Positions 8,374 to 29,228 of a stretch of DNA of 29,228 nucleotides are shown here, one piece after another. Position 1 is the first letter of the stretch, and each line of letters starts with the position of its first letter. Origin of the DNA: a virus; the IMG/VR virus record IMGVR_UViG_3300047667_001127, positions 1 to 29,228 of that record; one strand, given 5' to 3'. Both the position numbers and the translations under genes were made by a program. The notes below the pieces were generated by a model. It saw only the letters and a list, made by a program, of their open reading frames with translations, was not told where the DNA came from and made no database searches.

Positions 8374-9813
8374 ATGAAAATTATAGGTACAGGTTCATAT
8401 GATGCTAACATTACGACTACTACAAATAGTCTTGCTGCAGCGATTATGACAAGACCAGAAATTGCGGCTCACGTTTCGAATTTTTGGCAAAGTAATTATA
8501 CTGCTTTCTCTTCTCTTTTGGCAAGAAAGAATATGTTGAAAGGCGGTTTAGAAGCTAATTTATCTGAAAAAGATTTCAAGGTAATTGGCAACAAGAAATT
8601 TCAATGGATGGTTGAAGGACTTCCATTTGATAAGTGTGTAATCACAAAAGCTAGTATTCCTGCAGTTGGATTTACTGACTTTGGAACTGATGGTGCTGCG
8701 TTTAAGATTTACTTGAATGCGAACTATTACTCTCCAAATGACAGATTAGGTCTTAATGATGGTGAGACTCAGGTTCAGGTAATGGATATTGATCCATTAC
8801 AGGTTACTGATGACCAGTGGGAATATGTTGTTAAGTTGGCTACAAATCAAGCTGGAGATTCAATTCCTGCAGCTTCGGAAATGTTGGCTCTTAATGCTGA
8901 GGTTGGATTCGCGTTTACTTCTTTCCCAGAAATGAGTGAAACAGGTTATGAGAAAAACAGCTTTCCGGAATGGAGAACTGAATACATGACTATTCAGCGT
9001 ATGCAATACTCAATTTCGGGTTCTGCAGCTAATACTAAAGTCTATTGGGCCGAGCACAATGGAGAAGAAGTATGGTTTACTCGTCAAGAAATGAAGATGA
9101 TGGAAAGATGGGCAATTGCTCGTGAAAACCAAATTCTTTTTGGAATACCTACTATCAATGAAAAGGATGAAGTGTTCTTGAAGGATATGAAAGGCAGAGA
9201 GATTATTTCTGGTTCAGGAGTTGTTAATCAAGGGGAACCTTCTTTGAGATATAACTACAACAAGCTTACGATTAAGCACGTTGAGAATATCATGAAGAAC
9301 ATGCAATTGTTGTCTAATGGTGGTGGTGAGATTGAAATTGCTGTTCAAGGTGGACAAACATTTGTATGGGAATTTGCTGAGATTATGCTTGAACGTTACA
9401 AGCTTGCTCCACAAGTATTGTTTACGAATGATGGTGGTGATAGAGGTGTAAATGCAAATTTCAATGTCTATATGATGGGTAACGTTAAGTTAATCGTTTC
9501 TCATAACAAAGGACTTGATGCTGAATGGAGAGCAACTACGAAAGATAATCGTGGAAACTCTAAGAGATCTAAGGATGCTTATTTCTTTGCATTGAATACT
9601 ACTATGGAGAAAAGTAACATCGAGTTAGTTACTTTAGGAAATGGAACTGGAGATCGTTCTTTTGTTAAGAGAATTATTGACGGAATGGAAAGTCCGGGTG
9701 AGGATAAGAAGTACGCTTCTAACTCAGTGGATGGTTTCCAAGTACAGATTCTTTCTGAATCAGGTGTTAAGCTTGATAATGAGTTTGGAATTGGTCAACT
9801 TAGATGTAGATAA
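8374..9813 (+). CDS. Major capsid protein
   Basis: A 479-residue protein with the length and pattern of crAss-like HK97-fold capsid proteins. Familiar stretches include WRTEYMTIQRMQYSISGSA (near residue 200), a following VWFTRQEMKMMERWAIARE helix, a KGREIISGSG loop and LLSNGGGEIEIAVQGGQTF. Codons are smoothly biased, as expected for a highly expressed gene. It is preceded by a run of A directly before the ATG (Bacteroidota-type leader) and is followed by the only strong intrinsic terminator in the window, which would help set its transcript dose. It assembles with the portal and scaffold encoded just upstream. The assignment is from pattern and position, with no search done. Confidence 0.88.
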   Translation: MKIIGTGSYDANITTTTNSLAAAIMTRPEIAAHVSNFWQSNYTAFSSLLARKNMLKGGLEANLSEKDFKVIGNKKFQWMVEGLPFDKCVITKASIPAVGFTDFGTDGAAFKIYLNANYYSPNDRLGLNDGETQVQVMDIDPLQVTDDQWEYVVKLATNQAGDSIPAASEMLALNAEVGFAFTSFPEMSETGYEKNSFPEWRTEYMTIQRMQYSISGSAANTKVYWAEHNGEEVWFTRQEMKMMERWAIARENQILFGIPTINEKDEVFLKDMKGREIISGSGVVNQGEPSLRYNYNKLTIKHVENIMKNMQLLSNGGGEIEIAVQGGQTFVWEFAEIMLERYKLAPQVLFTNDGGDRGVNANFNVYMMGNVKLIVSHNKGLDAEWRATTKDNRGNSKRSKDAYFFALNTTMEKSNIELVTLGNGTGDRSFVKRIIDGMESPGEDKKYASNSVDGFQVQILSESGVKLDNEFGIGQLRCR

Positions 9814-11574: not shown

Positions 11575-11584
11575 ATAAATTATT

Positions 11585-12427
11585 ATGTTAAAAAGACCTA
11601 GTGAAAAGTATTTAGTCAATACGGCTAATACTAAAGAGATAGTAATGATTGATGCTGCTGGAGCAGAGATTCCTCTTTTGGCTAATTACGGTAATACTGT
11701 AAAGGTATCTATGCCAAGATTGGGAATTGAGTTTCTTGTTGCTAATATGATTGTATCAACTCGTGAATGTAAAGCTGCCGGAACTGCAGGTGTAGTAGAA
11801 GTTGCTGTTGTAGTAGATGCTGCTCCATGTGCTTCTTGTCCTTTTGAGTGGGCTTTGAGAGTTACTTTTGGAAAGACTTCTTATAGAATTCTTGACATTA
11901 CTGATGGACGCTACAAGGACACTTACTTGAATTATGTGAGTGAAAGTTCTACTGTTCCTCTTGCTTCTACAATTGCTACTAACGTCGTTGCTTCTGTTAC
12001 GGCTGACAAGGCTTGTATAGCGAATGGTGTTACTGCTGCAGTTAAAGCTGGTGGTGGAAATGAGCATATCATTGTATTGACTGGAACAGACTTACAACCA
12101 TTTTCTGCTTATGTAGCTGTTGGTTTGGGTTCTGCTACTGTTACTACTGCGTTTAATGCAGCTACGTTGCAAGATGACGATATGAAGCGTTTGTTTCCTA
12201 TTGGACATGCTGATTATGGTTCAGCTAAACAGTTCCCGCAAGATGGAGAGTCTTATTGTAAGTACACGTTACAACTTGGTTTAGGCCAAACTCGTGACTT
12301 GGCACATTCAATGGGTCATGTAAATGTTGAAGGAAACTTTAATTTTTATATTAAGGATAATACTGGAAATAGAACTGCTGTTGATGAGAAGTTAGCTGCT
12401 ATTTCTGCTTATACTGCTTTAGTATAA
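11585..12427 (+). CDS. Ala/Val/Thr-rich virion structural protein candidate
   Basis: A 280-residue protein dominated by Ala, Val, Thr and Gly, with alternating hydrophobic patterns that predict mostly beta strands (VVEVAVVVDAA, YVAVGLGSATVTTAF). Codon choice is strongly biased to T-ending codons such as GCT and GTT, resembling that of the capsid gene and suggesting high expression. Cysteines C82 and C85 form a CxxC (PCASCPF) with C62 nearby. A decoration, auxiliary capsid or tail protein is plausible; no specific family is recognised. Its stop overlaps the next start as TAATG. Confidence 0.6.
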   Translation: MLKRPSEKYLVNTANTKEIVMIDAAGAEIPLLANYGNTVKVSMPRLGIEFLVANMIVSTRECKAAGTAGVVEVAVVVDAAPCASCPFEWALRVTFGKTSYRILDITDGRYKDTYLNYVSESSTVPLASTIATNVVASVTADKACIANGVTAAVKAGGGNEHIIVLTGTDLQPFSAYVAVGLGSATVTTAFNAATLQDDDMKRLFPIGHADYGSAKQFPQDGESYCKYTLQLGLGQTRDLAHSMGHVNVEGNFNFYIKDNTGNRTAVDEKLAAISAYTALV

Positions 12428-12759
12428 TGGCTATAAGCTACTTAGAATCATTGTTAATAGTTGTGGGGGTCTGTTTGGGCCTCCGCACTATTACTGATGA
12501 TGGTATGATTGGTTCACCAATAAGAATGTGGGCAATTACTTTACCAGAATGGATTGGAAAGCCTTTGATTACTTGCGTTACTTGTATGTCTTCTTTATGG
12601 GGAACAATTGTTTTCTTTTCTATTTACTACAATGTGTTTGTATTCAATTTTAAATCGATCACATTTTGGTTTTCAATTTGTATAATTTCAGCTTACTTAA
12701 ATACTGTTGGTTGGAGTTTATTAAATTTACTATTTAAGTATTCAAAAACGACTAGGTAA
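12427..12759 (+). CDS. Small membrane protein with CxxC motif
   Basis: A 110-residue protein with three hydrophobic segments (about residues 6-20, 55-73 and 78-101). The motif C50-V-T-C53-M-S-S-L-W58-G precedes the second segment. A CxxC followed by a conserved Trp at a membrane entry recalls DUF1360-type small membrane proteins, but this is a pattern match only. It is odd among soluble connector genes, since nothing else between capsid and muzzle has membrane segments. Possible roles are membrane association during assembly, superinfection effects or lysis; none is shown. It has TAATG overlaps on both sides, so it is tightly coupled to its neighbours. Confidence 0.65.
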   Translation: MAISYLESLLIVVGVCLGLRTITDDGMIGSPIRMWAITLPEWIGKPLITCVTCMSSLWGTIVFFSIYYNVFVFNFKSITFWFSICIISAYLNTVGWSLLNLLFKYSKTTR

Positions 12760-14285: not shown

Positions 14286-14856
14286 TGTCTTAAATCTATT
14301 TCAAATAAGAAACAAAGACATTAATGTTGACGAGTACGATTTATTAGATATCGCATATGATATGTATCGTCAAATTGCGGATTTAACTGTTTTGCCCTAT
14401 GGTGAGGGAATTGAATTAAAAGTTGATGAAAATCGCAATGCAATCCTACCTTGTAATGTTTATAAAGTCGACCAGGTATTTCGAAATAATGCTCAGTTAG
14501 ATCCTAAGCATTTCTTTATTCGGGAGACTCGAATTGGAATTAATCTAAAAAAAGAGAACGTAGGAACTATTACTGCTGACTTGTACTTTATTCCTGTTGA
14601 TGAAGATGGTAATCCAGAGATTGATAGGGAGATGGGTGAATGTATCTATTGGACTTATATGTATTATCAAATACTTCCTAAGTGGACTATCGGGGATATT
14701 AGTGGAGACAAGTTGCAGTATTATGAAAACAAGATGTATAGTTGGCAACGTGCTGCTAGTGGATCTCTACATAAGCAAACTAAGAATCACAGACAGAAAT
14801 TGTGGAAGAACAAGATTAATGTTAATCCTAAAACGCGTTCAATAAGAGGGTTGTAA
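14254..14856 (+). CDS. Ring/tail tubular protein, P22 gp4-like
   Basis: A 200-residue protein with the hallmarks of the crAss-like homologue of P22 gp4 (tail accessory factor, ring protein): a DEYDLLDIAYDMYRQI helix at about residues 26-41, then a short beta region (GIELKVDENRNAILP), and a C-terminal helical, basic tail with WQRAASGSLHKQ. This class docks below the portal and forms the first ring of the short tail. It is directly followed by the stabilization/muzzle gene, the expected neighbour, joined by TAATG. The start at 14254 lies 32 bases inside the previous gene; the next Met (near residue 38) would cut the key helix. Confidence 0.72.
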   Translation: MEQSTLYTLSNVLNLFQIRNKDINVDEYDLLDIAYDMYRQIADLTVLPYGEGIELKVDENRNAILPCNVYKVDQVFRNNAQLDPKHFFIRETRIGINLKKENVGTITADLYFIPVDEDGNPEIDREMGECIYWTYMYYQILPKWTIGDISGDKLQYYENKMYSWQRAASGSLHKQTKNHRQKLWKNKINVNPKTRSIRGL

Positions 14857-17800
14857 TGAGAGAGAAAACTAAAATCAAGAATACGTTTGGTGGTGTTGTT
14901 ACTGATGTTGCTAATTCTGTTGTACCTGCTAATATGGCTGTTGGGATGGAGAATGTTCGGGTTTATTCTCCTGATGGAGATAAATCGTTTATAGCTACTT
15001 ATGTAAAGGGTAGCGAAAAGAAATTTTCGATAACTGAGGGTTATACTCCAATTCGAACTAAGTCTTTTAATGGAGTTTTGTTCATCTTTTCTGTTAAGGT
15101 CATTGACGATTCTTTCGTGACTGAGATAGGTTGTTTTCCTTCTCCTAATTATTATAATCCAATATTAGGTCTTGATACTGGATTTCAAGAAGAGTATTCT
15201 CCTTTAATGAATTACACTGCGGAAAAACGTGCAAGTGAATCGGGTTCATTGGAGCAGGAATTTCGTTCTTCTCAATTCAATATGAATTTAGAGACCAACT
15301 TAGATATTAGTTTCTATGGGGTTCACGATAACACTGTAGATATCTATTTTATGGACCATACTAATCCAATGAGGGTTATTAATAGTGGTTTCGATTTAAG
15401 CGGGAATAAGGTAGCTAAAAGGCTTTATAGTAATTACGATTTTAAAGGTAAGATTAACATGGTTTTATATACCGATAAAATCATGACTGGTCGCGCTACT
15501 GGAAGTAATCCAACTGGAGGTGTTTTAAATAATGGTGTTTATTCTGTTTATGCTAGATATGTTACTGCTCAATATGATCGTACTCAGTTTTTTCTTTTGC
15601 AGAGTGGTATTTATGTCGGAAAGGGAGCGTCAAATGAACTTGCTAACGAATCGATTGAATTTTTAATTAATAACATTGATAAGGATTTTAATAAAATTGA
15701 AATTGGTTTTGTTAGGAAATTCGATAATACGTTTGAGGCGTTTATTGTAAATCAATATTATCGTCTTGGTACTAATAAATCAAATATTACGATTGATATT
15801 ACTGGCCTCAATGTGATAACAGCTATTTCTGAGGATTTTATAAGTTCAATTATAAGTCACGATATTCCTAAAACGGCTACTATATTTAGAAATAGAATAT
15901 GGCCGGCCAACTTAAAGAAATCTGATAATCATAATGATTACTTGAAAAAATTTGCCAGTCTCATACAGCTTAAACCAGAGCGTATGAAGTCCTCTAAGCA
16001 ATCTATTGTAGTGGATGGTTATACGTTAGAAGAACCTTCTATTAACGTTATTGAAGGAACTGACTTTAAAGGCTATTACCATGCGGGAGAAATTTACTGC
16101 GCTGGATTACAATTTCAATTTACATCTGCAAGAGAATCCGATCCTTATCCGTGTAGAGGTGGCGACTTTTTTGATCAATCAAACATAGGTATAGATATTA
16201 ATAATACTGGTATAATAAGATTCCCAAAGAACACAAGTGTATTGACTGATATTACTCAGGCTGCACTTCCATTTAAGTTGAAAATTGATGGGAGTGATCT
16301 TTGGTCTTGGATTAACAGTTCGCTTAATATAGCTGCAAAAAAATGGTTTGAAGCAAATATTCAGTCTATAACAATTGTTCGTGCGGAGAGAAAGCCATTT
16401 AAGATAACGCAAGCAGTCTTATTAAAAGGCTATCATACAGACCATTCAAAAGCATTTTCTTCATATAATCCTAATCCTAATATCAGTGCTGAACAATGGG
16501 AGCAATGGGATAATTATTCTAACAATGAAGTACCTTTAATTAATCTTCCTAATCAAAATTGGAAAACTAGCACGAGTGATGTTCATCATCCGGCTCCTTC
16601 TATTCCTGTAATTAATTCTTCTTTTTCTAGTGTGTATTCATTTCTTAATCGTCCACAAACGCCTTTAGTTGAGGGTTCTTCTGCGGGATTATTTTCTTTT
16701 GATATATGCGCTGGAAAGCAGATAGAAGATAATACAGAAATTTTCATAGATACTTTGTATGAATTTCACGCTATTCCTGATAGTAGTGCAGGCGTTCCTA
16801 GTGATACTTCTCTTCGATTAAAATATGTAAAGGCTTCTTCTACATTTCGTGCTGACTACTCAGCTAGTAAGGTTAACGTTTGGAGTACTCAACGTAAGAA
16901 CAATATGGTTGGGTTTGTTAATCAGGGCGATATGATTGGTTATGAGGATACTCCGAATTTTGTTCAACCAGGAGGCCATTTAGGATATATGCCTGATAAG
17001 GCTGGTACGGTTGTCAATTTTGCAATGGGGTTTAATCCTTTTTTTGCTGTCGGTAGTGCTGGAAGTATTTTCACAGATCCGGGATTAAATACTGCAGTCA
17101 CTGGAGGAGAAAAAGTTGTTACTTCTGGAGCTCATGTTGTAAATGTTTATCCTAGTAATCCAATTTGGATAGATGCTTTTAATTGGTATGTTTTTAAGAA
17201 TGAACGTTTCTATAAAATTTCAGAAGCACTTACTGTTAAAGATTTCGCTACTGATATTCTAATTCGAAATGGAGATTGTTTTTATAATGAAGGTAGCATA
17301 ACTATTTTTGGGAATCCTCAATACGATCCTACGGATGATATTAAAAGCACAATGACTGCTGATGAACAAAGAGGTCGATCAGTCCAAGGAGCGCCTTCGC
17401 ATCCTATATTTAGGCTTGCGTTGAGATTGCGACTTGAAAGTGATTATAATCAGAAGCATTTTTATAGTGGCCCAGCTTCTACTGAACCAGGCATACAAGA
17501 ATCTTATTTATCATCTGCTAGTACACGTGCTCGTCAGAGTTTTAGGTATAATGATGCTTTCAGCGACTTGTTGCCTCTATCGTTTTACTATGGGTATAAT
17601 GGCGAACAGCCTGAGACTTCTTATCAATTACAGACTAGAGTTGCTTATTCAAATAAGACAAACAATTCTTCAATTAGAGATTGGTTTAGGGTATTTGATT
17701 TATCTTCTAAAGAAGACTACTCACATCAGTTTGGCCAGATAAATAGAATCGGTATTGTAAAGGATTTTATGATAATTGTTTTAGATAAAGCTGTATTAAG

Positions 17801-19007
17801 TTTGGTTGTTGATCAACAGACTACGGTCCCGTCTGAAACAGGACAAGTTCTTGTTGGAACCGGAAGTGTTTTAAATGAAAGGTATAATCCGATATCGGTT
17901 AAGCATGGTTCTCAGCATTTCAATGGAGTTTTGTTTGAAGACCATTTTTGTACTGGGATAGATGTTCAAGAGAGGGTTATATGGTTTTTTAGTAAGGAAT
18001 CGGGCTTTGAAGTGATTACTGAGAGTAAACATAACGTTAGTGAGATTACTGCTTTTTTTAACGCCTCTAACGCATCCTCAAATAAGAGTGCTGTTTTTAG
18101 TGATTCTCCAACTGGTAAAGAAGGGATGACTATTTCGTATGACAATAAGTATAAAGAGGTTCTGTATTCTTTTAGATCTGATATTACTATTACTTTGGAA
18201 GTGACAGAAGTTGTCTTCGGATTAATATCAGTTAAGATAACAGATCCTAATCATGTTTTTCTTATTCGAAGTAATGCAAATATCCAATTTACGTCTCCTA
18301 ATTATGAGGGTTACTTTATTTTGAGTGGAGTTATTCCGATTACACAGAGTGAAACCGATGGTCAGTGGTATGCTTTATTTACGCATAGCATTGGATTGCT
18401 TGTGTCTTCTGTTAAGGTTGGGACTATTCTTAGTTCAGGGCTTGACAGTCGGGAATTTACCCTTGTTTATAGTGAGGCTAAAAAAGAGTTCTGTGGAAAT
18501 AGAAGTTCAAATGCTAGGGTTTATGGTTCAATAAACAATAACTTTTATTCTTCTAATCCTGACAAGCCAGAAGAGTTTTGGATACATAATGTAGATGGTA
18601 AACGAGGCAATTTCTTTGGTGTTCAAGGGAAGTTTGAAATCACGTTTATTGTAAATGACCCTTCTGATATTGAGAAAATATTTCACACACACCATATTCT
18701 CTCTGCCCCATTAAACTTTGATTACATTAAGTATGAAACTCTAGAGCAAGCTTCTAGTCAAATTCCTTTTATTACGGATGAGACGGATGAAGAATCAATA
18801 TTTTTGGAGCCTAAGTACACAAAAGAAGGGTGGAATTTACCTGTTAATAGGTCGAAGGAAAACCTTTCTTTTAATGCCGATGTTATTACAAGTAATATTG
18901 GTTCACGAATGAAAGGTTCGTGGATGAAAGTAACTATTGGTTATACAGGTTCATTGCCTAATTTTATAAAGTCAGTTAGAACTGGCGTAACTAAAAAAAT
19001 AATATAA
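14856..19007 (+). CDS. Tail stabilization (muzzle) protein
   Basis: A 1383-residue, mostly beta protein. The N-terminus has NTFGGVVTDVANSVVPANMA (about residues 9-28), followed by a strand region with DIYFMDHTNPMRVINSGFD (about residues 162-180). Both are typical of the large stabilization protein of crAss-like phages, called muzzle in the phiCrAss001 structure, which forms the distal part of the short tail. It sits right after the gp4-like ring gene. A long Gly/Ser/Asn-rich central body and many short loops are visible, with no transmembrane segments or enzymatic motif. It is the second largest frame here. No tape measure protein accompanies it, in agreement with a short-tailed particle. Confidence 0.78.
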   Translation: MREKTKIKNTFGGVVTDVANSVVPANMAVGMENVRVYSPDGDKSFIATYVKGSEKKFSITEGYTPIRTKSFNGVLFIFSVKVIDDSFVTEIGCFPSPNYYNPILGLDTGFQEEYSPLMNYTAEKRASESGSLEQEFRSSQFNMNLETNLDISFYGVHDNTVDIYFMDHTNPMRVINSGFDLSGNKVAKRLYSNYDFKGKINMVLYTDKIMTGRATGSNPTGGVLNNGVYSVYARYVTAQYDRTQFFLLQSGIYVGKGASNELANESIEFLINNIDKDFNKIEIGFVRKFDNTFEAFIVNQYYRLGTNKSNITIDITGLNVITAISEDFISSIISHDIPKTATIFRNRIWPANLKKSDNHNDYLKKFASLIQLKPERMKSSKQSIVVDGYTLEEPSINVIEGTDFKGYYHAGEIYCAGLQFQFTSARESDPYPCRGGDFFDQSNIGIDINNTGIIRFPKNTSVLTDITQAALPFKLKIDGSDLWSWINSSLNIAAKKWFEANIQSITIVRAERKPFKITQAVLLKGYHTDHSKAFSSYNPNPNISAEQWEQWDNYSNNEVPLINLPNQNWKTSTSDVHHPAPSIPVINSSFSSVYSFLNRPQTPLVEGSSAGLFSFDICAGKQIEDNTEIFIDTLYEFHAIPDSSAGVPSDTSLRLKYVKASSTFRADYSASKVNVWSTQRKNNMVGFVNQGDMIGYEDTPNFVQPGGHLGYMPDKAGTVVNFAMGFNPFFAVGSAGSIFTDPGLNTAVTGGEKVVTSGAHVVNVYPSNPIWIDAFNWYVFKNERFYKISEALTVKDFATDILIRNGDCFYNEGSITIFGNPQYDPTDDIKSTMTADEQRGRSVQGAPSHPIFRLALRLRLESDYNQKHFYSGPASTEPGIQESYLSSASTRARQSFRYNDAFSDLLPLSFYYGYNGEQPETSYQLQTRVAYSNKTNNSSIRDWFRVFDLSSKEDYSHQFGQINRIGIVKDFMIIVLDKAVLSLVVDQQTTVPSETGQVLVGTGSVLNERYNPISVKHGSQHFNGVLFEDHFCTGIDVQERVIWFFSKESGFEVITESKHNVSEITAFFNASNASSNKSAVFSDSPTGKEGMTISYDNKYKEVLYSFRSDITITLEVTEVVFGLISVKITDPNHVFLIRSNANIQFTSPNYEGYFILSGVIPITQSETDGQWYALFTHSIGLLVSSVKVGTILSSGLDSREFTLVYSEAKKEFCGNRSSNARVYGSINNNFYSSNPDKPEEFWIHNVDGKRGNFFGVQGKFEITFIVNDPSDIEKIFHTHHILSAPLNFDYIKYETLEQASSQIPFITDETDEESIFLEPKYTKEGWNLPVNRSKENLSFNADVITSNIGSRMKGSWMKVTIGYTGSLPNFIKSVRTGVTKKII

Positions 19008-19735
19008 TGGCTAACATGAGTAAGAACACTTCCTCTGACTACGTTGTTCAGCGTGCTGAGGATAGTAATAATCGAAATAACACAAAGCTTATTGGTGGTA
19101 TTGGAAAAGGGATTCAGGCTGCTGGAAACATTGTTGGAAAAGCTAATCCATTAATCGGTGGTTTAATGTCTGGAGTTGGAACTGTATTTGCTGGATCTGC
19201 TGATAGTGTAGAAAAGAAAAATGCTTTAGATGTTGACAATGCACATGCTTCGGCTAATGCTTTTGAGTCAGATAGTTCTTTTAATAATTTCGAAGCTGGA
19301 GAGTTTGATTATGCTGCTGAAAACAAAAAAATGTTTAAGGATGCCGCTACTACCGCTGGGACAACTTTAGCTGCTCAATCGATATCTAAAATGGGTTCAA
19401 TGCCTAGTGATTCTGACCTTATGACTAAAACGCAGAAAATGGATATTAGTTCAGAATTACCTAATGCTCCTGAAGGAACGACTACCGGTGATATTTTTAG
19501 CGGAAATGAACTTCAATTACCTGAGCAAGATAATATTTTCGGGGGAACTGAAATAGGTGAATTAGGAAATTCAAGTTCTTCTGATTTTATGGGTGAAGAG
19601 GTTGACGAAATGAATTTACAAATGGAATTTGCTAAAGAAATGGGGATTGATAATTCAAACCTTACCGGAGTAGAAGCAGATGAATTTAAAGCCAACTTTG
19701 AAGTTTGGTTAAATAAGAAAAATGGAGGAAAATAA
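19007..19735 (+). CDS. Small Gly-rich internal virion protein candidate
   Basis: A 242-residue protein. Residues about 28-62 form a Gly/Ala/Ile-rich hydrophobic stretch (LIGGIGKGIQAAGNIVGKA, then LIGGLMSGVGTVFAG) that may insert into a membrane. The rest is polar and acidic with low-complexity Ser/Asn/Gly and helical ends. This layout is reminiscent of small podovirus internal or ejection proteins such as T7 gp14-type proteins, but no homology is claimed. It lies between the muzzle gene and three larger putative cargo genes. It starts in a TAATG overlap. Role inferred from context. Confidence 0.55.
   Translation: MANMSKNTSSDYVVQRAEDSNNRNNTKLIGGIGKGIQAAGNIVGKANPLIGGLMSGVGTVFAGSADSVEKKNALDVDNAHASANAFESDSSFNNFEAGEFDYAAENKKMFKDAATTAGTTLAAQSISKMGSMPSDSDLMTKTQKMDISSELPNAPEGTTTGDIFSGNELQLPEQDNIFGGTEIGELGNSSSSDFMGEEVDEMNLQMEFAKEMGIDNSNLTGVEADEFKANFEVWLNKKNGGK
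19724..19728 (+). promoter_or_regulatory. Shine-Dalgarno-like GGAGG before the 637-residue protein
   Basis: GGAGG lies nine bases before the ATG at 19738, inside the last codons (Gly-Gly-Lys) of the preceding gene. Most other starts in the window lack such a motif, so this may be a chance effect of Gly codons or a true ribosome-binding aid. Confidence 0.3.
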
Positions 19736-19737
19736 TT

Positions 19738-21651
19738 ATGGCTAAGACTAACAAAGGCGGCAAGAAAAAGGAATTCATTAATGCAGAAACAGTTGCTAAG
19801 TTTGAAGAAGATTACGGAATTCCCGCAGCAATTATTAAACAAAGAGTTGATTCTCTTGCAGAAAAATTTAACGATGAAGAATTTAGTGCTCTTCTAAAAG
19901 TAATTAATAATCCAGGTCCTACTATTGAAAAAGCAAATGCATTAAAACTTCTGTCAGAAAGTAAGTCAAACTTAGATAACAGTGTTTCTGAATATAAAGC
20001 TCAAAAACTAAAGGAAGAAACTAATAGTCCAGCAAGAAGATTAAATGAGGCTTCAATGCTTAAGCGACAGCAGGAAGAGCGAAATGCAGCAGAAGCTTCT
20101 TTAATCCCAGAAGGAAAGCTTTATCCTAGTGATGGTAAAGCAACTATTCCTGAAGGAAAAGCTTATGAACCTGAGCTTGATTCAAATGGAAATATAGTTC
20201 CACCGGCGAAAACAGATTACGAATCTAATCCTGATTCAATCCCAGAAGGAAAGCTTTATCAGCCAAATGGAAATCAAATGGGAGTACCTGAAGGAAAAGC
20301 TTACGACCCTAACGGAAACCCTGTTGGAATACCAGAAGGCGGGGCAAACAATGGTAAATTTTATAATCCTCAAACTGGATTACCGTATAAGCCCAAAAAG
20401 CCTCAGACTCAAAAAGAATGGTATGATGATGCTATGGCTAAACTAGAGGCTAAGACAGCTGCTGAATTAACTGCTAAAAATAAAAAAGTTGATAATAGTG
20501 ATGGATTTGGCTTTTTAAAACCTGAAAAAAAAGCAAAGAAAGAAAATACTCCAGTTGCTGCTGAAGATGTAAATACGATTCCAGGCGTTACTGATGTAGT
20601 TGATGGATTTGATGAACCTAACGGTGATGACCCTACTATTCCATTTGCTATTGGTTATGATGAAAATGGAACTAGTAATGAGGTTAGTGGTGACGCTGAG
20701 CAAAGAGAAAAAGATCTAGAGGCACAAAAGATTAATAATAGTCGTGTAAATAACGGGCTAGTTCCTTTTACAGAGGAACAAACAGATGTGGCTGTTAATA
20801 AGTCCAGAGATGCTAAGAAAGCTAAGAAAACAGGAACTATTCCTAAAGACGGAAGCAAAAGCTATACTGCAGATGTTACTGGCGAAAACAGAGAACCATA
20901 TACTGACCCTGTAACTCTTGACGCAACAATTGACGGTAAACCTGCTGCTAAATCTAAAGCTGAAAAAGCAAAAGAATTCCTTGCTTTGTTAGAGAACCCT
21001 GAAGTGGATGATGAATTTAAAAGAGCGATAGGCGCTTCTGATGCTATAAATGCTGTTACTTCTGGGAAAGAAATTTATGACATTTATAAAACTAAGCAGC
21101 GGTATAAAGAAAAGGAATTTGATCCTCTTACTATGAATAAAGATTTGCAATTTACTGAAGCTGATGTTGATTACGATGGCATGAGAATTAGTAATAAGAA
21201 TGAAATTCAATCTGCTTCTGATAGGATTTTAAAACAAGCAAGAGAAAGAGGTACGGATGATATTGCTCAGATAGGATTATCTGCACAAGAACTTAATAGT
21301 ATTTCTTCTGCCAACGTGAAGTATGATGTCCTTGAAGCTGGTCAGGCAGTAGAAAACAATAAGGGTAGAGATGCTGTTCAAAATCAAATATCAGCACTTA
21401 AGAATCAGGAGAAAGCATTTAACTCTAATGCTTATGCTAACTTTGACCAGAATAAAGAAAATTCTCTCATGAGTTTAATGGGTGCTGAAAATCAAGCTTT
21501 AGGTGGACTTGGAAATAAAATGATTACTAGTCTTAATTCTAGAACTGCATATTCACAAGGGAAGCAGAAGTCTAAATCGGAAGTTCTTTCTGAATTAGCT
21601 AAGTCTGGAGATATAAGAAAGTCACAAATATTAAAAACTGAGGAAGACTAA
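19738..21651 (+). CDS. Putative internal (cargo) virion protein with PEGK repeats
   Basis: A 637-residue, strongly charged, helical protein with a disordered centre. Residues 123-214 contain five degenerate copies of a short repeat, (I/V)PEG(K/G), three or four of them followed by (L/A)Y-x-P. The regions around residues 235-290 and 330-400 are Lys/Ala/Glu-rich and likely flexible; the C-terminal third (SLMSLMGAENQALG) is helical. No signal peptide, enzyme motif or membrane segment is visible. Position after the muzzle gene and before two more large proteins suggests an internal virion or ejected protein, as in crAss-like phages that store cargo in head and tail. It ends in TAATG. Confidence 0.5.
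   Translation: MAKTNKGGKKKEFINAETVAKFEEDYGIPAAIIKQRVDSLAEKFNDEEFSALLKVINNPGPTIEKANALKLLSESKSNLDNSVSEYKAQKLKEETNSPARRLNEASMLKRQQEERNAAEASLIPEGKLYPSDGKATIPEGKAYEPELDSNGNIVPPAKTDYESNPDSIPEGKLYQPNGNQMGVPEGKAYDPNGNPVGIPEGGANNGKFYNPQTGLPYKPKKPQTQKEWYDDAMAKLEAKTAAELTAKNKKVDNSDGFGFLKPEKKAKKENTPVAAEDVNTIPGVTDVVDGFDEPNGDDPTIPFAIGYDENGTSNEVSGDAEQREKDLEAQKINNSRVNNGLVPFTEEQTDVAVNKSRDAKKAKKTGTIPKDGSKSYTADVTGENREPYTDPVTLDATIDGKPAAKSKAEKAKEFLALLENPEVDDEFKRAIGASDAINAVTSGKEIYDIYKTKQRYKEKEFDPLTMNKDLQFTEADVDYDGMRISNKNEIQSASDRILKQARERGTDDIAQIGLSAQELNSISSANVKYDVLEAGQAVENNKGRDAVQNQISALKNQEKAFNSNAYANFDQNKENSLMSLMGAENQALGGLGNKMITSLNSRTAYSQGKQKSKSEVLSELAKSGDIRKSQILKTEED
20104..20343 (+). repeat. Tandem PEGK coding repeats
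   Basis: Within the 637-residue protein, five copies of an (I/V)PEG motif start near residues 123, 137, 168, 183 and 198. Copies 1 and 3 share a nearly identical 21-base tract beginning ATCCCAGAAGGAAAGC, and copies 2 and 4 share CCTGAAGGAAAAGCTTA. The alternation of L-Y and A-Y forms suggests duplication of a two-copy unit. Confidence 0.7.
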
Positions 21652-23624
21652 TGAAACTAATTGACGGAATGAACGGCGGGTTTGGGCAGTACAGGGCTTC
21701 TAATAACCCAATAATGACAATTGACCCTACACCTTTCATTGATGCATTTGCAGCTAAAGGGAAGGCTTATGCGCAAGCATCTGTAAACGATGCTGAAATT
21801 GAATCTAAAGTTCTTAATTGGGAGGGTGACATTCCTGATAAAATTCTACATGAATCTGCTTATAGAATGGAGGGGAATATTAGTACTGCTATTTCTGGTC
21901 TTAAAAAAATATTTGAAGACAATGGTGGTGATGTTGCTTATGCAATGAAAAACGACCCTAAAGCAAAGGCTCTTATGTCAAAGCTTAGTGTTAGTAAACA
22001 GATTACTCTTGCTGAGCAGGAAAAGTACGCTCAAAATGCTGAGTTTGAAAAAAATATGAATCTTAAAAATGGAGCATATAAAAATCAAATTGCATTTGAA
22101 GGTAATACTCTAAACCCGTATGCAACAGGTGATGGCGGTTCATATTCTAATGTTGGATTACAAAAGGTTAGAAGAGGTTTACTTAAGGGGCAGCATAACA
22201 TCGATCTTCATAACACTCCTACAATGAAGAATACAGAAGACGTTAATGATAAAATTAAAAAGTCTTTTGAAGGCCTAGGCAACTACAAAGAGGTGCTTGA
22301 TAAAATGGGTGTTGTAACCTCTGGATTAAGTGGTAATCAAATATTAGCTAAATTCAGAGAAACAACAGGAAGTAATGAAATTCAAATAGCTCATGCTGAG
22401 CTTCTTGCTGCAGATGCTATGGACGATCAAGATAGGCAAGCTCTTGGGAGTGATCTTATTAATGAAAAATCAAAAGGACATTATTATTCTGAAGACAAGG
22501 AAGGGAATATGTTTTGGGATAATGCAAGATTAGAGGCTGATGTACTTGAAAAAGGTATTGAAGTCATTAAACGTCACGGAAATAAAAATACTGAAGGAGA
22601 AGAAGGTTTAACGTTTAGTCCGATTAGAGATACTGACTTAAATGCTATTTCAAAATCAAAGAAGGAGCCAGAAATAACTCCACTTGAAGGAGCTGAAGGC
22701 AATGGTGTATCTAAAGCGGTTATGGTTAATGGTAAGATGCAGGTAGGGAACAACTTTGGTATTCTGCCAAAAGACCAACAGATAATTTTGGGTCGTAAAG
22801 CATCGGATTTCGGGGTACATTCTGTTAATAACGGAAATGAAATAGAAGACGTGTTTACTGCAGTGCCTGTAGGTGAGCTTATGATGCCGACTTTTGATTT
22901 TTCTGGTACTATAATCAATCAAGACTTCTTATCTAGAAAAGGAGCTGAGGTAATTGAAATGAGTAACAGATTAACTAAGGTTTCTTATGACACTGATAAT
23001 CCGAATGCTTCATACGATGGTGCTGGAACTTATGCTTCAGGTGTGATGCGGATAAATGCTAATAATCTTTCGGAAGGAGAGATGATGATTGATGTCTGGA
23101 CTTATAAAGATACTTTTATGTCGAAAGATGATATGGTTGACCAAATGATAAGGAATAAGGATTATAATCAATTAGAAGTAAACGCTAGGGCTGCTATTTT
23201 AAATATAGCTGCTGAGCATCGAAAAAACGATAAATCATTATCTGAAGAGGGTGCTCTTGCTCTTGCTATAAATCAAAACATAAGTGCTTTTAGTGCGGAT
23301 AAAAAGAAGATGGATGTTCTGTCTGATGAAGTGAGAAATTCTAATAGGGTTTCATCGTCAAATATTACCAACAAGAAAACAAGAGATCATATTCAATCTG
23401 ATGAGAATTTTTATGATATGGATTATTTTGAAGGAGATTACATATATTTAAAAATGGCTGGAAATGTTACATCGGCTGCTTCTAATGCCTCGTTTAATGA
23501 GTCCGGTAAACCTGTAGGAGAATTTGCAACAGCAACACGGGCTTTTGGTAAGAATCTAGGTGTACAAGAAGGTACTGGAGACGTAACTGCAGATCCAAGT
23601 GAAGTAAAAAGCATAAATAACTAA
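21651..23624 (+). CDS. Putative internal (cargo) virion protein (657 aa)
   Basis: A 657-residue soluble, charged protein of mixed helix and strand. The N-terminus (GMNGGFGQYRASNNP, then DPTPFIDAFAAKGKAYAQAS) is followed by a long helical region. The centre holds a strand-rich part (KAVMVNGKMQVGNNFGILP, near residues 360-378). The C-terminus is Ala/Ser/Gly-rich. No signal peptide, membrane segment or catalytic motif was found. It is joined to the previous gene by TAATG and lies before the giant gene, so the three likely form one cargo set. Comparable large proteins follow the muzzle in crAss-like phages. Function not recognised. Confidence 0.5.
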   Translation: MKLIDGMNGGFGQYRASNNPIMTIDPTPFIDAFAAKGKAYAQASVNDAEIESKVLNWEGDIPDKILHESAYRMEGNISTAISGLKKIFEDNGGDVAYAMKNDPKAKALMSKLSVSKQITLAEQEKYAQNAEFEKNMNLKNGAYKNQIAFEGNTLNPYATGDGGSYSNVGLQKVRRGLLKGQHNIDLHNTPTMKNTEDVNDKIKKSFEGLGNYKEVLDKMGVVTSGLSGNQILAKFRETTGSNEIQIAHAELLAADAMDDQDRQALGSDLINEKSKGHYYSEDKEGNMFWDNARLEADVLEKGIEVIKRHGNKNTEGEEGLTFSPIRDTDLNAISKSKKEPEITPLEGAEGNGVSKAVMVNGKMQVGNNFGILPKDQQIILGRKASDFGVHSVNNGNEIEDVFTAVPVGELMMPTFDFSGTIINQDFLSRKGAEVIEMSNRLTKVSYDTDNPNASYDGAGTYASGVMRINANNLSEGEMMIDVWTYKDTFMSKDDMVDQMIRNKDYNQLEVNARAAILNIAAEHRKNDKSLSEEGALALAINQNISAFSADKKKMDVLSDEVRNSNRVSSSNITNKKTRDHIQSDENFYDMDYFEGDYIYLKMAGNVTSAASNASFNESGKPVGEFATATRAFGKNLGVQEGTGDVTADPSEVKSINN

Positions 23625-23661
23625 ATAGATTTTATTTTTTAATAATTAAATACAACATACA
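23625..23661. other. Short AT-rich intergenic gap
   Basis: This 37-base gap is almost purely A/T and holds a weak imperfect inverted repeat (TTATT, then AATAA). No convincing terminator, Bacteroidota promoter (a -7 TAnnTTTG with upstream TTG) or Shine-Dalgarno sequence is visible. It is the second largest gap in the window. It probably acts as an A/T-rich leader for the giant gene. Confidence 0.5.
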
Positions 23662-26600
23662 ATGTCAGGGAACATTCCTAAAAATGCCATTGGCGAAAAC
23701 GCTGCAACTGCAAACGAAGGACAAAGACCAACTCCTTTATTGCCACAAGAAGAAGTAAAGCAAGAAAAAATACAATCTAAAAATACTGGCAGTGTGGTTC
23801 AACCCCCTACTGAGCCTCCTAAAAGTTTAAGTGAACAATGGGAGGGAAAGGATTACACTGCTTTAAGATTACAGAAAGGTCTTAAGAATTACGATATTAC
23901 CCGTATTACCGAAGGTAGTAATTTAGCTTTTCCATCTAGAGAAGAGTTTGATTTTGACGGACCAGAAGACCAAAAAGAAAATACCTATAAGTTTCTACAG
24001 AACGAGTTTAAGGACTATCAACTAGGCCATTGGACTGCACAAAGCAGTAATATGAAGCGTATGCCTGAAGGTGTTCTTGCGAAACATTTAAACTCAGCTA
24101 CTTTCGGTTCAGAGAATATTAGAAGTAAAGATCAGTTTGCTGACTTAACTTTAACTGGAAGTGATAATGGTAAATCGCTTACAGAAGAGCAGCAATTCGA
24201 TGCTATGGGAACATACATTGATACTGACAATAACATGAAAACTCTTAATGAGTATTTCAATTCCAAGAAGGGAGATAAGAATGTTCTTATTCAGGATTTC
24301 GACGAAGAAGGAAATAAAACTTTTCGTGCTGTTGACAGGAATAAGGCTTTGGATATGCACCAGATTAGAAGTGCTTATGGTCCTGCTGAATTTACAAGTA
24401 ATCCGGCGATTTCTTTTGGAAAGGGATTCTATGAAGGGTTTGTAACAAGTTCTGTTTCTACTGTTGGATCTCTTACTGAGATTACTGGTGATTTGTTTGA
24501 CAAGTGGAATAGTGATGATAAGTGGACTGATGATTTTGGTCACAGAATGCGTAACTGGGCTTCTGAACAAAGTGCAATGAATGAGGATGAAAGAGTTTCA
24601 CTGTTTGAGAGTTTCCCTGCATTTATGGCGGTTACTGGTCAGGGTGTAGCTTCAATTGCACAGATGATTGCGATGGGCGGTGCTGCAAATGTTGTTGGCA
24701 AAGCAGCTGTTATAGGAGGAATGAAAGCTGGTGCTAAAGGATTAGCTACTCGTGCTGGTGCTCGTTCTGCTTTAAAGGGTGTTGGTATTGCTAGTAGAGA
24801 GGTTGCGTTGGTAACTGGTTCCGCTGTAATGACTGATGCTACTTATAAAGAAGCAAAGTCAATGGGACTTAGCGATAAGGAATCTGCGATGTTGGGCGCG
24901 ATAGCTGGCGTTACTACTTATGGAGTCGAAAAATTTATAGGGCCTGGACTTGATATAAATTATTGGGCAACTGGAGGTGGAAAAGCTGCATTAAGATCTT
25001 CTATTAAAAGCGCTCAGTCTCAATTAGGAAAAGGTAGTTCTGCTGAGGTAAAAGAAAAAGGTGCTAAGGCTTTTATTAAAGGCGTTAAGAAATCTTATCA
25101 AGAAGCTTTAGATAAAGGGATGACTAACAAAGGGGTCACTGCTTTAACCATGGCGATTGAAGAAGGTGGGGAAGAAATGGTTGAGCAGTTCTCTGGTAAT
25201 TTATTTAAGAATGTTCATGATATTCACAACAATCATCTTTATGAAACTAGTATAAACACTTACAATAAAGAGCTTCAAGGGTACAATAATAGTCTTGGCC
25301 AATATGAAGTAAAAGAGTCTGCTCCTACTGGATATTATAAAATGGGTATGGGCGGTAAGACTGTCTGGGCTAAAGATAAAGTAGGTGGTGGTAGAATTAT
25401 TCTTAATGATGAAGAATATGCTGCTTTAGAAAATGACAAAACTTATTACAAGAGAGATGCGAATGGAAAGCAAAATATTATAAATAAGCAGACTTACGAT
25501 AGGAAGACTCAGGAATTAAATGATAATGTCGTTAGTCTTAGGAAGTCAAAGCCTCAACCTACTGAAGTTGGGAAGGGTAAGTTTAGTGACAGAAAAGGCA
25601 TGGGTAGTCTTCTTGAAGGAACTACTGAAGGTATGGGTGAAGCGTTTGCTGGAGCTTTATTACCGGGTGCTTTATTTGGCGTGATGAAACCTCAGCGAAA
25701 AGCTACTTTGAGAAGGTTTGTTGCAGAGGGTAAGAGTTCTGAATTGTATCTTGAATTAGATAAGATGCATAAGCAAGGTGCTCTTGGACCAAAAGGTCTT
25801 GACATTAATGGCGAACCATTAAAAAAGGGAGCTGTTAGTGCAAATGATTTTATTTATAATGAATTTCAAACTGAGATAGGTCTTGTTCAGCAGGAAGTAG
25901 CTGCTGATGGCGTTGATGCTGTCCTTGAAAAAGAAGATTTAAAAGCTAAGGATAAGGATGCTAATGCTTATGATCAATTTTTATCTGATACTCGTGGTGA
26001 GTATCTTGCTAATTATGGCAAATTAAAAGATGCTCAATCTTTAACAGAGCAAATTGAAGCTGATACCGAATTAAGTGTTGACGAAAAGACAACTAAGATT
26101 GCAGAGCAAGAACAGGTTGTCAAAGATCTTCAGGGTCGCTTAGATTACTTTCAAGTTAAAAACGAGGCTGGTGTAACGGAAAGAGAAATGGATGCCCTTA
26201 ACAGGGCTCTATTAGAGAATAAAGCTGATTCTAATTCTGAGATTGTTCTTAATCAACTTGATAGGATTTCTACTCTAGGAAAAGATTTCAAAGCTTATTA
26301 TGATAAGACTTATTCTGAGAGAGAGGCGACTAGTGCGAAGAATATATCTGAAAATAAGGATGCTATATCTTCTTTGGTTGAGACTATGATGGATTCTGCG
26401 GATGCTGATGTGTTTTCTAGAAGCTTTGTAGAGTTGTCTAATCTAGCTAAAAACAAAGGTGCTGCTGTATCTGATAGTCAGTTAGCTGAGATTCAAAAGA
26501 AAGCAGAAGTTCTTAAGGAAAGTCTTTACAAAGCTGCTGGAAAAGCTATTAGCGACTTTAAGGTTGGTGATAATGTTGACGAGACTATTAATAGCATTTT

Positions 26601-29228
26601 AACAAATCAAGACGGAGATAATTGGGAAGTTTTAGCTAATGATCTTGACGGTAGTTATGCTGCTATGACGGGTCAAGCTGCTAGCTTGAAACCTGTTTTT
26701 GGTGGTAATGGCTTAGCTGATAATCTTGCTGCTCCTGACAATACTAAATCTTCTCCTGAAGATATTCTTACTGAGTATTTTAAAGAAAAGATAGATGCTC
26801 CAATTGCTGCGCTAGAATCTCTAGTTAATGCAGAGGAATTCGATCCTTTAAGTGCTGCAGAAGCATCAAATTCAGCTGCTCAAAATGCAAATACAGTATT
26901 AGCTGAGTTTCGTGCTTTAGCTAATTCTGTTGGTGCTATTAAAGCTGGAATTATTGACGGTAAAACATTAGACCAATTACCAGTTGAATTTAAGGAGGCT
27001 ATAAAGAACAATCAATTACATAAAATTGATTATATAAATTCTTTTCCTGGTACTACTGATAGTGCTAAGGCAGCATTAAATGAAACGAATCAGGCTGCTT
27101 ACCAAAAGTTAAAAGCAGTAAATGAACAAATAAACAAAGAGCTTGTAAGCTTTGAAGCTAGGCAACAAGAAATAAGAGTGCAAGATGTTCGTGCTCGGGT
27201 TTCACTTCTTCTTTCTTTAGGAGAAGGTATTGTTGATGAGCAAACAATGGAATCTCTTGCTACTGTCCTGACAAATAATATTGACAGAAAAACAATAGGA
27301 AGTCAAGAAGCTCTTTTGTTAGCTGCTGAACAGCAAGTGTATGAGTATGCTCAAAAGAATAAAAAAGCATTTGAAAAAAAGGCAGTTGAAGTAGCTGCAT
27401 TAAAAATAGGAAACTCTAGTCAAGCTTATAGCAATGCTGGTGAATACAATGGTAATGATCCTGACCAGTTCTTACTTGATAATCCGTTTAATATTAAGCC
27501 TACTCCACAAAGTCCTTTAACTGCTCCACAGAAGCTTTTTATGCTGATGTATTATGTTGATTATGTAAACAAGATTTCAAAGTTAAATCCTGCTACTGTT
27601 GAACATGCTTTTGCTAGAGTAGTAGAAGATAAAAAAATATCTCCTTCAGTAGAACAATTTGAAAATGCTAAATCTGCTTTAGCAATGGTTGTTGATGGAT
27701 CTGCTAGCTTAACAAATGCTATTAGCAAATCGTTAGCTGACCATTTTAAAGACATGGGTAGCAATGCTATTTACATGAGAGGGCCAGCGGGTGCTGGTAA
27801 ATCAATGATGATACCGGGTCTTACTGTTTCTCTTTTTATGGAGATGCAAGAAGAAGGTAAAGATGCTCCTATTGTGAGGGTTTATGCTCCATCAAAAGAT
27901 CTTTCTGATAAAGTTACTGCGAACATGCAGAATCTTTTTGGTATTGATGTTTTAACTAGTAAGGAACTAAAAGAAGGTGCATCTACTATTGATTTAGATG
28001 AAAATTCTATTGTGTTTATTGATGAAGCTTCTTTGTTAACGAAGGAACAGATTCTTGCTATAAATAAGAATTTAGAAAATAATAACTCTGCTACTGTTAT
28101 CTTTTTAGGAGACCAGCTTCAAGGGACTTCTGGCGATTCCTATGCTCCGATTGAAGATTTTTATCAACGTTCAGTTGGGTTAAATTACATCTACCGTTCT
28201 GGTGTTGTTGATTTATGGAATTTACAAAAAACATTACGTGAAGCATTTTACACAGAAGGTAACGCTATACCTTGGACTCCTTTACATTATAATCCTGAAG
28301 CGGGCAAAGGTGTTCGTGTTGTAAATGATATACGAGATGTCGTAAAGAATTTCAAGAAAGATGATAGGGGTGTAATTGTTTTTGATAATCTAGATCAAGC
28401 GCGTTTTTTATTAGGCGCAGACTTTGATGCTTTCTCTGATCGTGTTTATACTCTTAGTCAGGGAATGATAGATAACAAGAGAAATACTTTGGTTCAAGGT
28501 TCTGATTTTATGAAGGTTTATCTAGTCACTGATAGAGCTAATTATCCTAAAACTGGAAAGTCTTTCTTAAGAGCGTTGTTAACGGGTGCTACTCGTGCTA
28601 CTGATTATGTCGAGATGTTTGTTCCGGATGTTGATCCAAAAGACTTTAATCGTGTTGGGCCTATAACTGAAATAAAAAAAGATGATAGTCAGATTGCTTC
28701 TCAACAGGCTACATTAAAAACTCGTTCTACTGATATACTTGAAGGTGTTGAAGATGAGCTTTTAGCTAACGATGGTGATATTCCTGTTGTAACTACAGAA
28801 GATGTAGATGATGATGTTAATGGACAACCTACGGAAGCTGAGTATCAACAAGCATTAGATGTATTAGCGCCTTTAATGAATAATAATTCAGAGCTTACGT
28901 TAAATGAATTACAAGAAGTTTATGAGGCTTTGGGTGATAATTCTGAAAATGTACTTGATATATCTAAAAAGCAAAACGCAAAAACTCTTTATAAGGAATT
29001 AACAGATAAGAAAAATTCTTTAGAACCAACACAACCAACTAGTGATGTTAAAGAAATAAAAACGTTTGTTGATCGCATATCTAAAGGCGAGACTATTGAT
29101 TCTGATACTGATAAGCAATTTTATGAAAACAATAAATCTGAGATTGAAAAACAGTTAACGGAAAAGATTAATGAAAAACCAACACAACAAAGTAGTGAGG
29201 TTGAAGAAAAAATATCTGAAGTAATAAA
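23662..29228 (+). CDS. Giant internal/polyvalent protein with SF1 helicase (3' partial)
   Basis: The frame opens at ATG 23662 and stays open to the window end: 1855 codons plus two bases. Regions: a Pro/Gln-rich disordered start (about 1-60); a Gly/Ala-rich hydrophobic block (about 318-440) followed by an acidic EEGGEEMVEQ (500-509); a second block at 654-675; a coiled-coil-like part near 784-831; and a superfamily 1 helicase core. Helicase landmarks are Walker A GPAGAGKS (1374-1381), Walker B with D1454-E1455-A-S, motif III GDQLQ (1483-1487) and motif VI GATRA (1642-1646). The order and spacing fit RecD/Dda/Pif1-like (SF1B) enzymes. After it come acidic linkers and a helical VDRISKGE...FYENN segment (1803-1824). 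Following putative cargo proteins, it may enter the host with the DNA; that is inferred. No other enzyme domain is seen; more may lie beyond the window. Confidence 0.85.
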   Translation, partial: MSGNIPKNAIGENAATANEGQRPTPLLPQEEVKQEKIQSKNTGSVVQPPTEPPKSLSEQWEGKDYTALRLQKGLKNYDITRITEGSNLAFPSREEFDFDGPEDQKENTYKFLQNEFKDYQLGHWTAQSSNMKRMPEGVLAKHLNSATFGSENIRSKDQFADLTLTGSDNGKSLTEEQQFDAMGTYIDTDNNMKTLNEYFNSKKGDKNVLIQDFDEEGNKTFRAVDRNKALDMHQIRSAYGPAEFTSNPAISFGKGFYEGFVTSSVSTVGSLTEITGDLFDKWNSDDKWTDDFGHRMRNWASEQSAMNEDERVSLFESFPAFMAVTGQGVASIAQMIAMGGAANVVGKAAVIGGMKAGAKGLATRAGARSALKGVGIASREVALVTGSAVMTDATYKEAKSMGLSDKESAMLGAIAGVTTYGVEKFIGPGLDINYWATGGGKAALRSSIKSAQSQLGKGSSAEVKEKGAKAFIKGVKKSYQEALDKGMTNKGVTALTMAIEEGGEEMVEQFSGNLFKNVHDIHNNHLYETSINTYNKELQGYNNSLGQYEVKESAPTGYYKMGMGGKTVWAKDKVGGGRIILNDEEYAALENDKTYYKRDANGKQNIINKQTYDRKTQELNDNVVSLRKSKPQPTEVGKGKFSDRKGMGSLLEGTTEGMGEAFAGALLPGALFGVMKPQRKATLRRFVAEGKSSELYLELDKMHKQGALGPKGLDINGEPLKKGAVSANDFIYNEFQTEIGLVQQEVAADGVDAVLEKEDLKAKDKDANAYDQFLSDTRGEYLANYGKLKDAQSLTEQIEADTELSVDEKTTKIAEQEQVVKDLQGRLDYFQVKNEAGVTEREMDALNRALLENKADSNSEIVLNQLDRISTLGKDFKAYYDKTYSEREATSAKNISENKDAISSLVETMMDSADADVFSRSFVELSNLAKNKGAAVSDSQLAEIQKKAEVLKESLYKAAGKAISDFKVGDNVDETINSILTNQDGDNWEVLANDLDGSYAAMTGQAASLKPVFGGNGLADNLAAPDNTKSSPEDILTEYFKEKIDAPIAALESLVNAEEFDPLSAAEASNSAAQNANTVLAEFRALANSVGAIKAGIIDGKTLDQLPVEFKEAIKNNQLHKIDYINSFPGTTDSAKAALNETNQAAYQKLKAVNEQINKELVSFEARQQEIRVQDVRARVSLLLSLGEGIVDEQTMESLATVLTNNIDRKTIGSQEALLLAAEQQVYEYAQKNKKAFEKKAVEVAALKIGNSSQAYSNAGEYNGNDPDQFLLDNPFNIKPTPQSPLTAPQKLFMLMYYVDYVNKISKLNPATVEHAFARVVEDKKISPSVEQFENAKSALAMVVDGSASLTNAISKSLADHFKDMGSNAIYMRGPAGAGKSMMIPGLTVSLFMEMQEEGKDAPIVRVYAPSKDLSDKVTANMQNLFGIDVLTSKELKEGASTIDLDENSIVFIDEASLLTKEQILAINKNLENNNSATVIFLGDQLQGTSGDSYAPIEDFYQRSVGLNYIYRSGVVDLWNLQKTLREAFYTEGNAIPWTPLHYNPEAGKGVRVVNDIRDVVKNFKKDDRGVIVFDNLDQARFLLGADFDAFSDRVYTLSQGMIDNKRNTLVQGSDFMKVYLVTDRANYPKTGKSFLRALLTGATRATDYVEMFVPDVDPKDFNRVGPITEIKKDDSQIASQQATLKTRSTDILEGVEDELLANDGDIPVVTTEDVDDDVNGQPTEAEYQQALDVLAPLMNNNSELTLNELQEVYEALGDNSENVLDISKKQNAKTLYKELTDKKNSLEPTQPTSDVKEIKTFVDRISKGETIDSDTDKQFYENNKSEIEKQLTEKINEKPTQQSSEVEEKISEVI
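27700..28640 (+). other. SF1 helicase domain within the giant gene
   Basis: Approximate limits of the ATPase core, about residues 1347-1660. It includes Walker A at 27781-27804, the DEAS Walker B at 28021-28032, GDQLQ at 28108-28122 and GATRA at 28585-28599. A hydrophobic strand runs into each motif, as expected of a RecA-type fold. UvrD-type 1B/2B insertions are not apparent, so the core is compact. Confidence 0.75.

Follow-up and report, generated by a model that had tools for sequence, protein, structure and literature searches.

The window analysed here is one whole viral contig of 29,228 bases (IMG/VR record IMGVR_UViG_3300047667_001127). Profile searches identified a terminase large subunit (2903..4915, +; phrog_6681, E 1e-73) and a portal protein (4851..7289, +; phrog_6547, E 5.5e-38), and the two frames, which together span 2903-7289, share 65 bases. 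Downstream lie a crassvirus major capsid protein (8374..9813, +; Pfam Crass_capsid, E 3e-31) and a crassvirus muzzle protein (14856..19007, +; Pfam crAss_MUZ, E 7e-17), and crassvirus ring protein 2 was also recognised by profile search. The capsid, muzzle, ring, terminase and portal genes are arranged in the order typical of Crassvirales and of PhicrAss001. The terminase is 25-32% identical across its length to those of named crAss phages and, in a terminase tree, belongs to a clade of 14 rows with strong support (100/100), the remaining rows of which are IMG/VR contigs. Judged by these genes and their order, the window covers the structural block of a divergent member of the Crassvirales. 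Its long frames stay open under the standard code, in contrast to those of the TAG-recoded zeta-like relatives described below. The features 3′ of the muzzle gene are as follows.

19007..19735, +, gene of 242 aa after the muzzle gene, in the cargo region (by position only)
19738..21651, +, gene of 637 aa in the cargo C1 position (by position only)
21651..23624, +, gene of 657 aa just 5′ of the giant frame, in the cargo C2 position (by position only)
23662..29226, +, giant cargo-block ORF, first 1,855 codons, with an ATG start and open to the contig end; collinear with the 6,414-codon ORF of IMGVR_UViG_3300049491_000465
24562..25011, +, Gly/Ala-rich stretch, residues 301-450 (composition; Gly+Ala up to 33%)
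25606..26064, +, N-terminal region common to zeta-like cargo proteins, about residues 649-801 (phmmer, hhalign)
27757..28611, +, SF1B helicase core, residues 1366-1650 (Pfam AAA_30, motifs I-VI, profile nearest RecD, Pif1 and Dda)
27781-27804, +, motif I (Walker A) GPAGAGKS, residue 1374 (motif reading)
28012-28032, +, motif II (Walker B) VFIDEAS, residue 1451 (motif reading)
28108-28122, +, motif III GDQLQ, residue 1483 (motif reading)
28189-28203, +, motif IV-like IYRSG, residue 1510 (Arg invariant in a seven-sequence alignment)
28492-28509, +, motif V VQGSDF, residue 1611 (Gln invariant in the same alignment)
28585-28599, +, motif VI GATRA, residue 1642 (Arg invariant in the same alignment)
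28639..29226, +, charged, linker-like stretch 3′ of the helicase, ending at the contig end (composition)

The record is the whole contig and the giant frame has no stop before its end; the gene is therefore incomplete in the window. The initial annotation had described a frame of at least 1855 codons with Walker A, DEAS, GDQLQ and ATRA motifs, all of which were confirmed; motifs IV and V, absent from that list, are present too. It had further described hydrophobic Gly/Ala-rich blocks. The enrichment is real, Gly and Ala together reaching 33% in residues 301-450, but the hydrophobicity is not of transmembrane grade: no window of 19 residues in this part of the giant reaches a Kyte-Doolittle value of 1.6 or more, and a transmembrane helix is therefore not indicated. 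The last 200 residues carry many charges and little Gly or Ala, as the linker proposed there would do, and the stretch at 28639..29226 gave no significant Pfam match. The helicase is the sole recognisable enzymatic domain in the window's part of the giant.

Pfam AAA_30 matched residues 1366-1513 above its curated cut-off (E 6.8e-11), and a weak C-terminal match to UvrD_C_2 was found at residues 1611-1650 (E 0.05). Residues 1374 to 1646 contain all SF1 motifs in sequence, from I to VI, which bears out the earlier claim of a complete SF1 core. The core motif residues are invariant in an alignment of seven sequences that are 17-27% identical to the window; as the same order repeats in relatives this distant, the motif set is not a chance occurrence. 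A second ATRA, at residue 362, lies outside the helicase core. When a profile of the helicase family was searched against solved structures, RecD (E 2e-7), Pif1-type helicases (E 4e-7) and Dda (E 9e-4) were recovered, with coronavirus nsp13 also near, after the Pif1-type; Upf1-like helicases were intermediate and the SF1A helicase PcrA was much weaker (E 0.01). The top row of this search, a putative deoxyribonuclease, was set aside as a match over just 67 positions. Moreover, a Dda-like PHROG matches the helicase of IMGVR_UViG_3300049491_000465 (E 3.7e-12). Because the family profile is nearer to RecD, Pif1 and Dda than to PcrA, and given the Dda-like match, the sequence points to a helicase nearest the SF1B kind.

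A structural model of the helicase, built from two sequences, had a pLDDT of 45 overall and was poor beyond the first RecA-type domain. The Foldseek best rows were flavivirus helicases and other P-loop proteins with low TM-scores, and we read these rows solely as consistent with a RecA-type fold. Of the two RecA-type domains expected of an SF1B helicase, the first was modelled as RecA-type (Z about 10) and the second with low confidence. Searches with the single sequence found no close relatives in viral contigs or phage records and no match in the PDB. We consider it very likely that the giant belongs to the cargo block of a crAss-like phage and that its SF1B motif set, that of a putative helicase, is intact.

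On one strand of the window, the muzzle gene is followed by the 242-aa, 637-aa and 657-aa genes and then by the giant. In PhicrAss001 the cargo proteins gp45 and gp46 come after the muzzle, and gp47 after them, in the place that the giant occupies here. Mass spectrometry detected gp45, gp46, gp47, gp49 and gp50 in PhicrAss001 virions (PMC10172136), and gp65, gp66 and gp67 of phi14:2 are annotated as virion proteins from MS/MS. We call the giant a cargo protein because it sits where these two phages have virion proteins detected by mass spectrometry. The argument is partly one of position: the three genes between muzzle and giant have no detectable homology to gp45 and gp46 (C1 and C2), and homology between the giant's N-terminal region and gp47 is not demonstrable (hhalign probability 2-14%). 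Homology and gene order together make it likely that the giant is packaged in the virion. The initial annotation had placed the gene at the end of a probable internal-protein cassette, which can now be identified as the Crassvirales cargo/transcription block, with products in the virions of PhicrAss001 and phi14:2. PhicrAss001 gp47 itself (21120-28145), called an RNA polymerase subunit, carries a zincin motif, HEAFH, at 2157, and a weak PDDEXK_1 match near residue 1770-1810 (E 0.003, below cut-off).

The closest long relative, IMGVR_UViG_3300049491_000465, was found by a terminase-profile scan of viral contigs; a profile of seven TerL sequences proved too weak to search the genome collection. 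This contig of 77.9 kb is collinear with the window, with a terminase 45% and a capsid protein 52% identical to the window's. At the giant's place it has one frame of 6,414 codons (33021-52265), which matches the giant in the N-terminal region (E 3e-9) and in the helicase (E 4e-18). The same frame matches a crAss polymerase profile (E 1e-7) and, in its RNA polymerase part, PhicrAss001 gp50 (E 6e-8). In a profile alignment, GGDYDID (residue 4212) lines up with GSDFDID, the catalytic DxDxD motif of phi14:2; MAFFT had misplaced the relative's motif. A zincin motif, HEMIH, lies at residue 5088 in a region that matches phi14:2 gp65 (E 8e-11). The order along the chain is N-terminal region, helicase, PD-(D/E)XK-like series, polymerase core and zincin. 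Since the window's gene ends at codon 1,855, a polymerase in the same chain is established solely for the relative. What the initial annotation missed is the phage group and, above all, the tie of this gene to the virion RNA polymerase; in the closest long relative the two are fused.

The PD-(D/E)XK or RecB-like series was read by eye just after the helicase of this relative, in residues 1830-2170 (11519-12541 of locus L111), and runs from about residue 1887 as GNAVHRIVE, GTIDII, DILDIKT and QLATYKAML. A helicase followed by RecB-like nuclease motifs is a pairing seen in recombination enzymes. The region had no Pfam support and no match to other cargo proteins, and a single-sequence structure model was uninformative (pLDDT 34).

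Helicases in the same position were also found in two unannotated human-gut records, MT835470 and MT835492, in a cargo block near crassvirus muzzle and capsid genes. A profile built from these two recovered nine further contigs. Two contig pairs look like copies and in these proteins one contig shares 81-88% identity with MT835492, which leaves eight distinct phages with both records included. The nine contigs and MT835492 were translated with TAG as a sense codon. In all eight phages the Walker A motif lies at residue about 1,490-1,860 of a cargo protein of ~3,000 aa, which is split into two ORFs in contig L129 and in MT835492, and the RNA polymerase gene comes directly after the helicase-protein gene wherever the contig covers it. 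In MT835470.1 (3991-14848) the polymerase lies in two ORFs, with the break exactly at DxDxD (GSDYRL, followed by another ORF). Such a break suggests that the catalytic site holds an intron, an intein or a frameshift, as has been described in zeta phages. The contigs reach 183 kb, and the published zeta group matches in contig size, TAG recoding and a polymerase split at DxDxD (PMC7886860, PMC10136315). On these three features the phages with the ~3,000-aa protein are probably zeta-like. In a further IMG/VR contig, 3300042860_000924, the frame with the helicase spans 4,114 codons or more, running to the contig end, and also has a gp47-type zincin.

By hhalign, the zeta-like and window groups match both in the helicase (E 8e-15, probability 98.4%) and in the N-terminal part that precedes it (E 6e-10, probability 96.6%), the latter over a longer stretch than residues 649-801. 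It is the N-terminal match that carries weight, as SF1 helicases all resemble one another. In pairwise searches, this region of the window matched the MT835470 ORF with an E of 5e-5 (phmmer) and 3e-5 in the reverse direction. The iterative helicase search was run with replicative helicases included in the database, and a small tree, to be read with caution for its long branches, set the cargo helicases apart (100/99) from the replicative SF1 helicases that three crAss-like records encode.

The helicase is probably not present throughout the order. PF13604 alone under-counts, leaving the cargo helicases of the near-identical contigs L126 and L127 unlisted in their cargo ORF, and absence was therefore re-checked with the helicase-family profile. 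This gave no matches in 18 other crAss-like or related records (PhicrAss001, phi14:2, cr124_1, cr125_1, cr128_1, ProJPt-Bp1, a Bohxovirus, phi17:2 and ten IMG/VR contigs), an absence that is likely rather than proven because the profile itself missed the cargo helicase of a known positive, L133. Several of these contigs have polymerase frames of 2,000-3,900 codons in which the helicase was not found. In FpV4 and ctbg_1 the profile matched solely separate ORFs, of 166 and 487 aa. Since the injected polymerase serves many crAss-like phages that lack this helicase, the helicase is not essential for it. Helicase-bearing phages occupy three places in the terminase tree, which reflects either an ancient feature with several losses or more than one gain. 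The Flavobacterium phage FpV4 encodes a 'virion structural protein' of 4,287 aa (27881-40744) in which DYDID at 3116 marks an RNA polymerase core of crAss type and HEVIH at 4065 a zincin motif, another polymerase/zincin fusion, here without the helicase.

The best reading of these data, and one that we regard as on balance probable, is of an SF1B helicase in an ejected crAss-like cargo protein, most likely helping the injected RNA polymerase on incoming DNA. The giant would be packed in the virion and ejected together with the phage DNA. Once refolded, its helicase would translocate on one strand of the incoming DNA, where it could open the duplex or remove bound proteins, and a template opened or cleared in this way would aid the co-injected RNA polymerase in starting and running on the early genes. 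Packaging, ejection, refolding and helicase activity are all inferred. SF1B helicases travel 5′ to 3′, so that on the non-template strand the helicase would move the polymerase's way. Template opening or clearing for early transcription appears the likeliest task because the conserved partner is the injected polymerase. That the helicase does serve this polymerase or the early template is a tentative proposal, with the balance tipped slightly against it. A bolder version, possible if rather doubtful, is that the SF1B helicase and the crAss-type polymerase are joined in a single ejected chain exceeding 6,000 residues, or in a pair of neighbouring chains, perhaps with a RecB-like nuclease and a zincin. 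If so, the polymerase would carry its own DNA-opening motor into the cell.

Four other roles were considered. An ejected helicase, seated at the membrane or on the end of the DNA that enters first, might pull the genome in or stop it from slipping back. The cargo-block position of the giant would suit such a motor, as would the placing of the helicase in the giant's N-terminal third and, in relatives, directly before the polymerase gene. However, we consider this role unlikely, as the window's part of the giant has no transmembrane-grade segment and SF1B helicases normally load on single-stranded DNA, whereas the incoming genome is double-stranded. It is distinctly unlikely that the helicase and a RecB-like PD-(D/E)XK nuclease in one chain trim, join or repair incoming ends, or degrade host DNA. 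The motif series after the helicase of the long relative and the weak PDDEXK_1 match in gp47 are in keeping with this role, and a PDDEXK domain has been published in a crAss transcription protein (PMC7886860). However, the nuclease of the relative is without Pfam support, a usable structure model or a match in other cargo proteins, and its motifs were not seen in the window's part of the giant.

A role in countering host defence had been suggested from the outset, together with membership of the polyvalent proteins, and nothing beyond analogy was found for the former. Here, the injected protein would strip or disturb host defence complexes on phage DNA, as injected multidomain phage proteins with helicases, such as DarB of P1, are linked to anti-restriction (PMC5512222). 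Polyvalent proteins similarly unite a number of disparate domains in a single chain, presumed to be injected together with the phage DNA, and include the N4-type virion polymerase with its metallopeptidase domain. However, most of their helicases are SWI2/SNF2 enzymes joined to methylases, a few actinobacterial elements having UvrD (PMC5512222); none of these domains was found here, and domain searches of the window's protein revealed no methylase or other conflict domain. With the RNA polymerase as the conserved partner, we judge counter-defence quite improbable. The polyvalent theme is a loose fit: several enzymes do share one chain in the long relative, but in the window's part the helicase alone is recognisable. 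Least likely, and very much so, is a non-virion protein, a replication or late-acting helicase merely encoded in the late region: AAA_30 helicases do occur in separate ORFs of other crAss-like records and PhicrAss001 gp49 and gp50 are transcribed in the middle phase (PMC8375218), so that cargo genes may also act within the cell, but the strand and order here are those of cargo genes detected in virions, the helicase is fused to RNA polymerase in the long relative, and the cargo helicases are separate from the replicative ones in the tree.

The nearest known system is the Crassvirales cargo or virion RNA polymerase block (PhicrAss001 gp45-gp50; phi14:2 gp65-gp67), which shares the gene order after the muzzle and the very large proteins, as well as the DxDxD core and zincin of the long relative. 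It differs in that the SF1B helicase is absent, by family profile, from the PhicrAss001 and phi14:2 cargo proteins, and in having three genes where the long relative has a single 6,414-codon ORF. RecD, Dda and Pif1 share motifs I-VI and the profile matches, but are less than about 25% identical, and the window's helicase sits after about 1,300 unrelated residues of a cargo protein. The virion RNA polymerase of phage N4 is likewise a giant ejected polymerase protein with a metallopeptidase domain, and the available part of the source that describes it mentions no helicase (PMC5512222). Moreover, the N4 enzyme is related to single-subunit polymerases, whereas the crAss enzyme has a multisubunit-type DxDxD core. 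Giant transcription proteins of crAss phages have been described before, with polymerases of up to about 6,000 aa (PMC10136315). In the text of the papers searched, we found none placing an SF1 helicase in crAss cargo or polymerase proteins. A paper on zeta phages mentions a helicase ORF without its location (PMC12386605), and may thus hold an earlier annotation.

The human gut virome is dominated by crAss-like phages. Their infection starts with an injected RNA polymerase, whose giant companions are largely unexplained. A conserved helicase is a concrete candidate activity for one such virion protein, and offers a lead on how the injected polymerase gains access to double-stranded phage DNA. 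Lastly, the zeta-like contigs L130-L134 come from bins named Erysipelotrichaceae, Tenericutes, Firmicutes and Clostridium, which reflect either binning errors or hosts outside the Bacteroidota.
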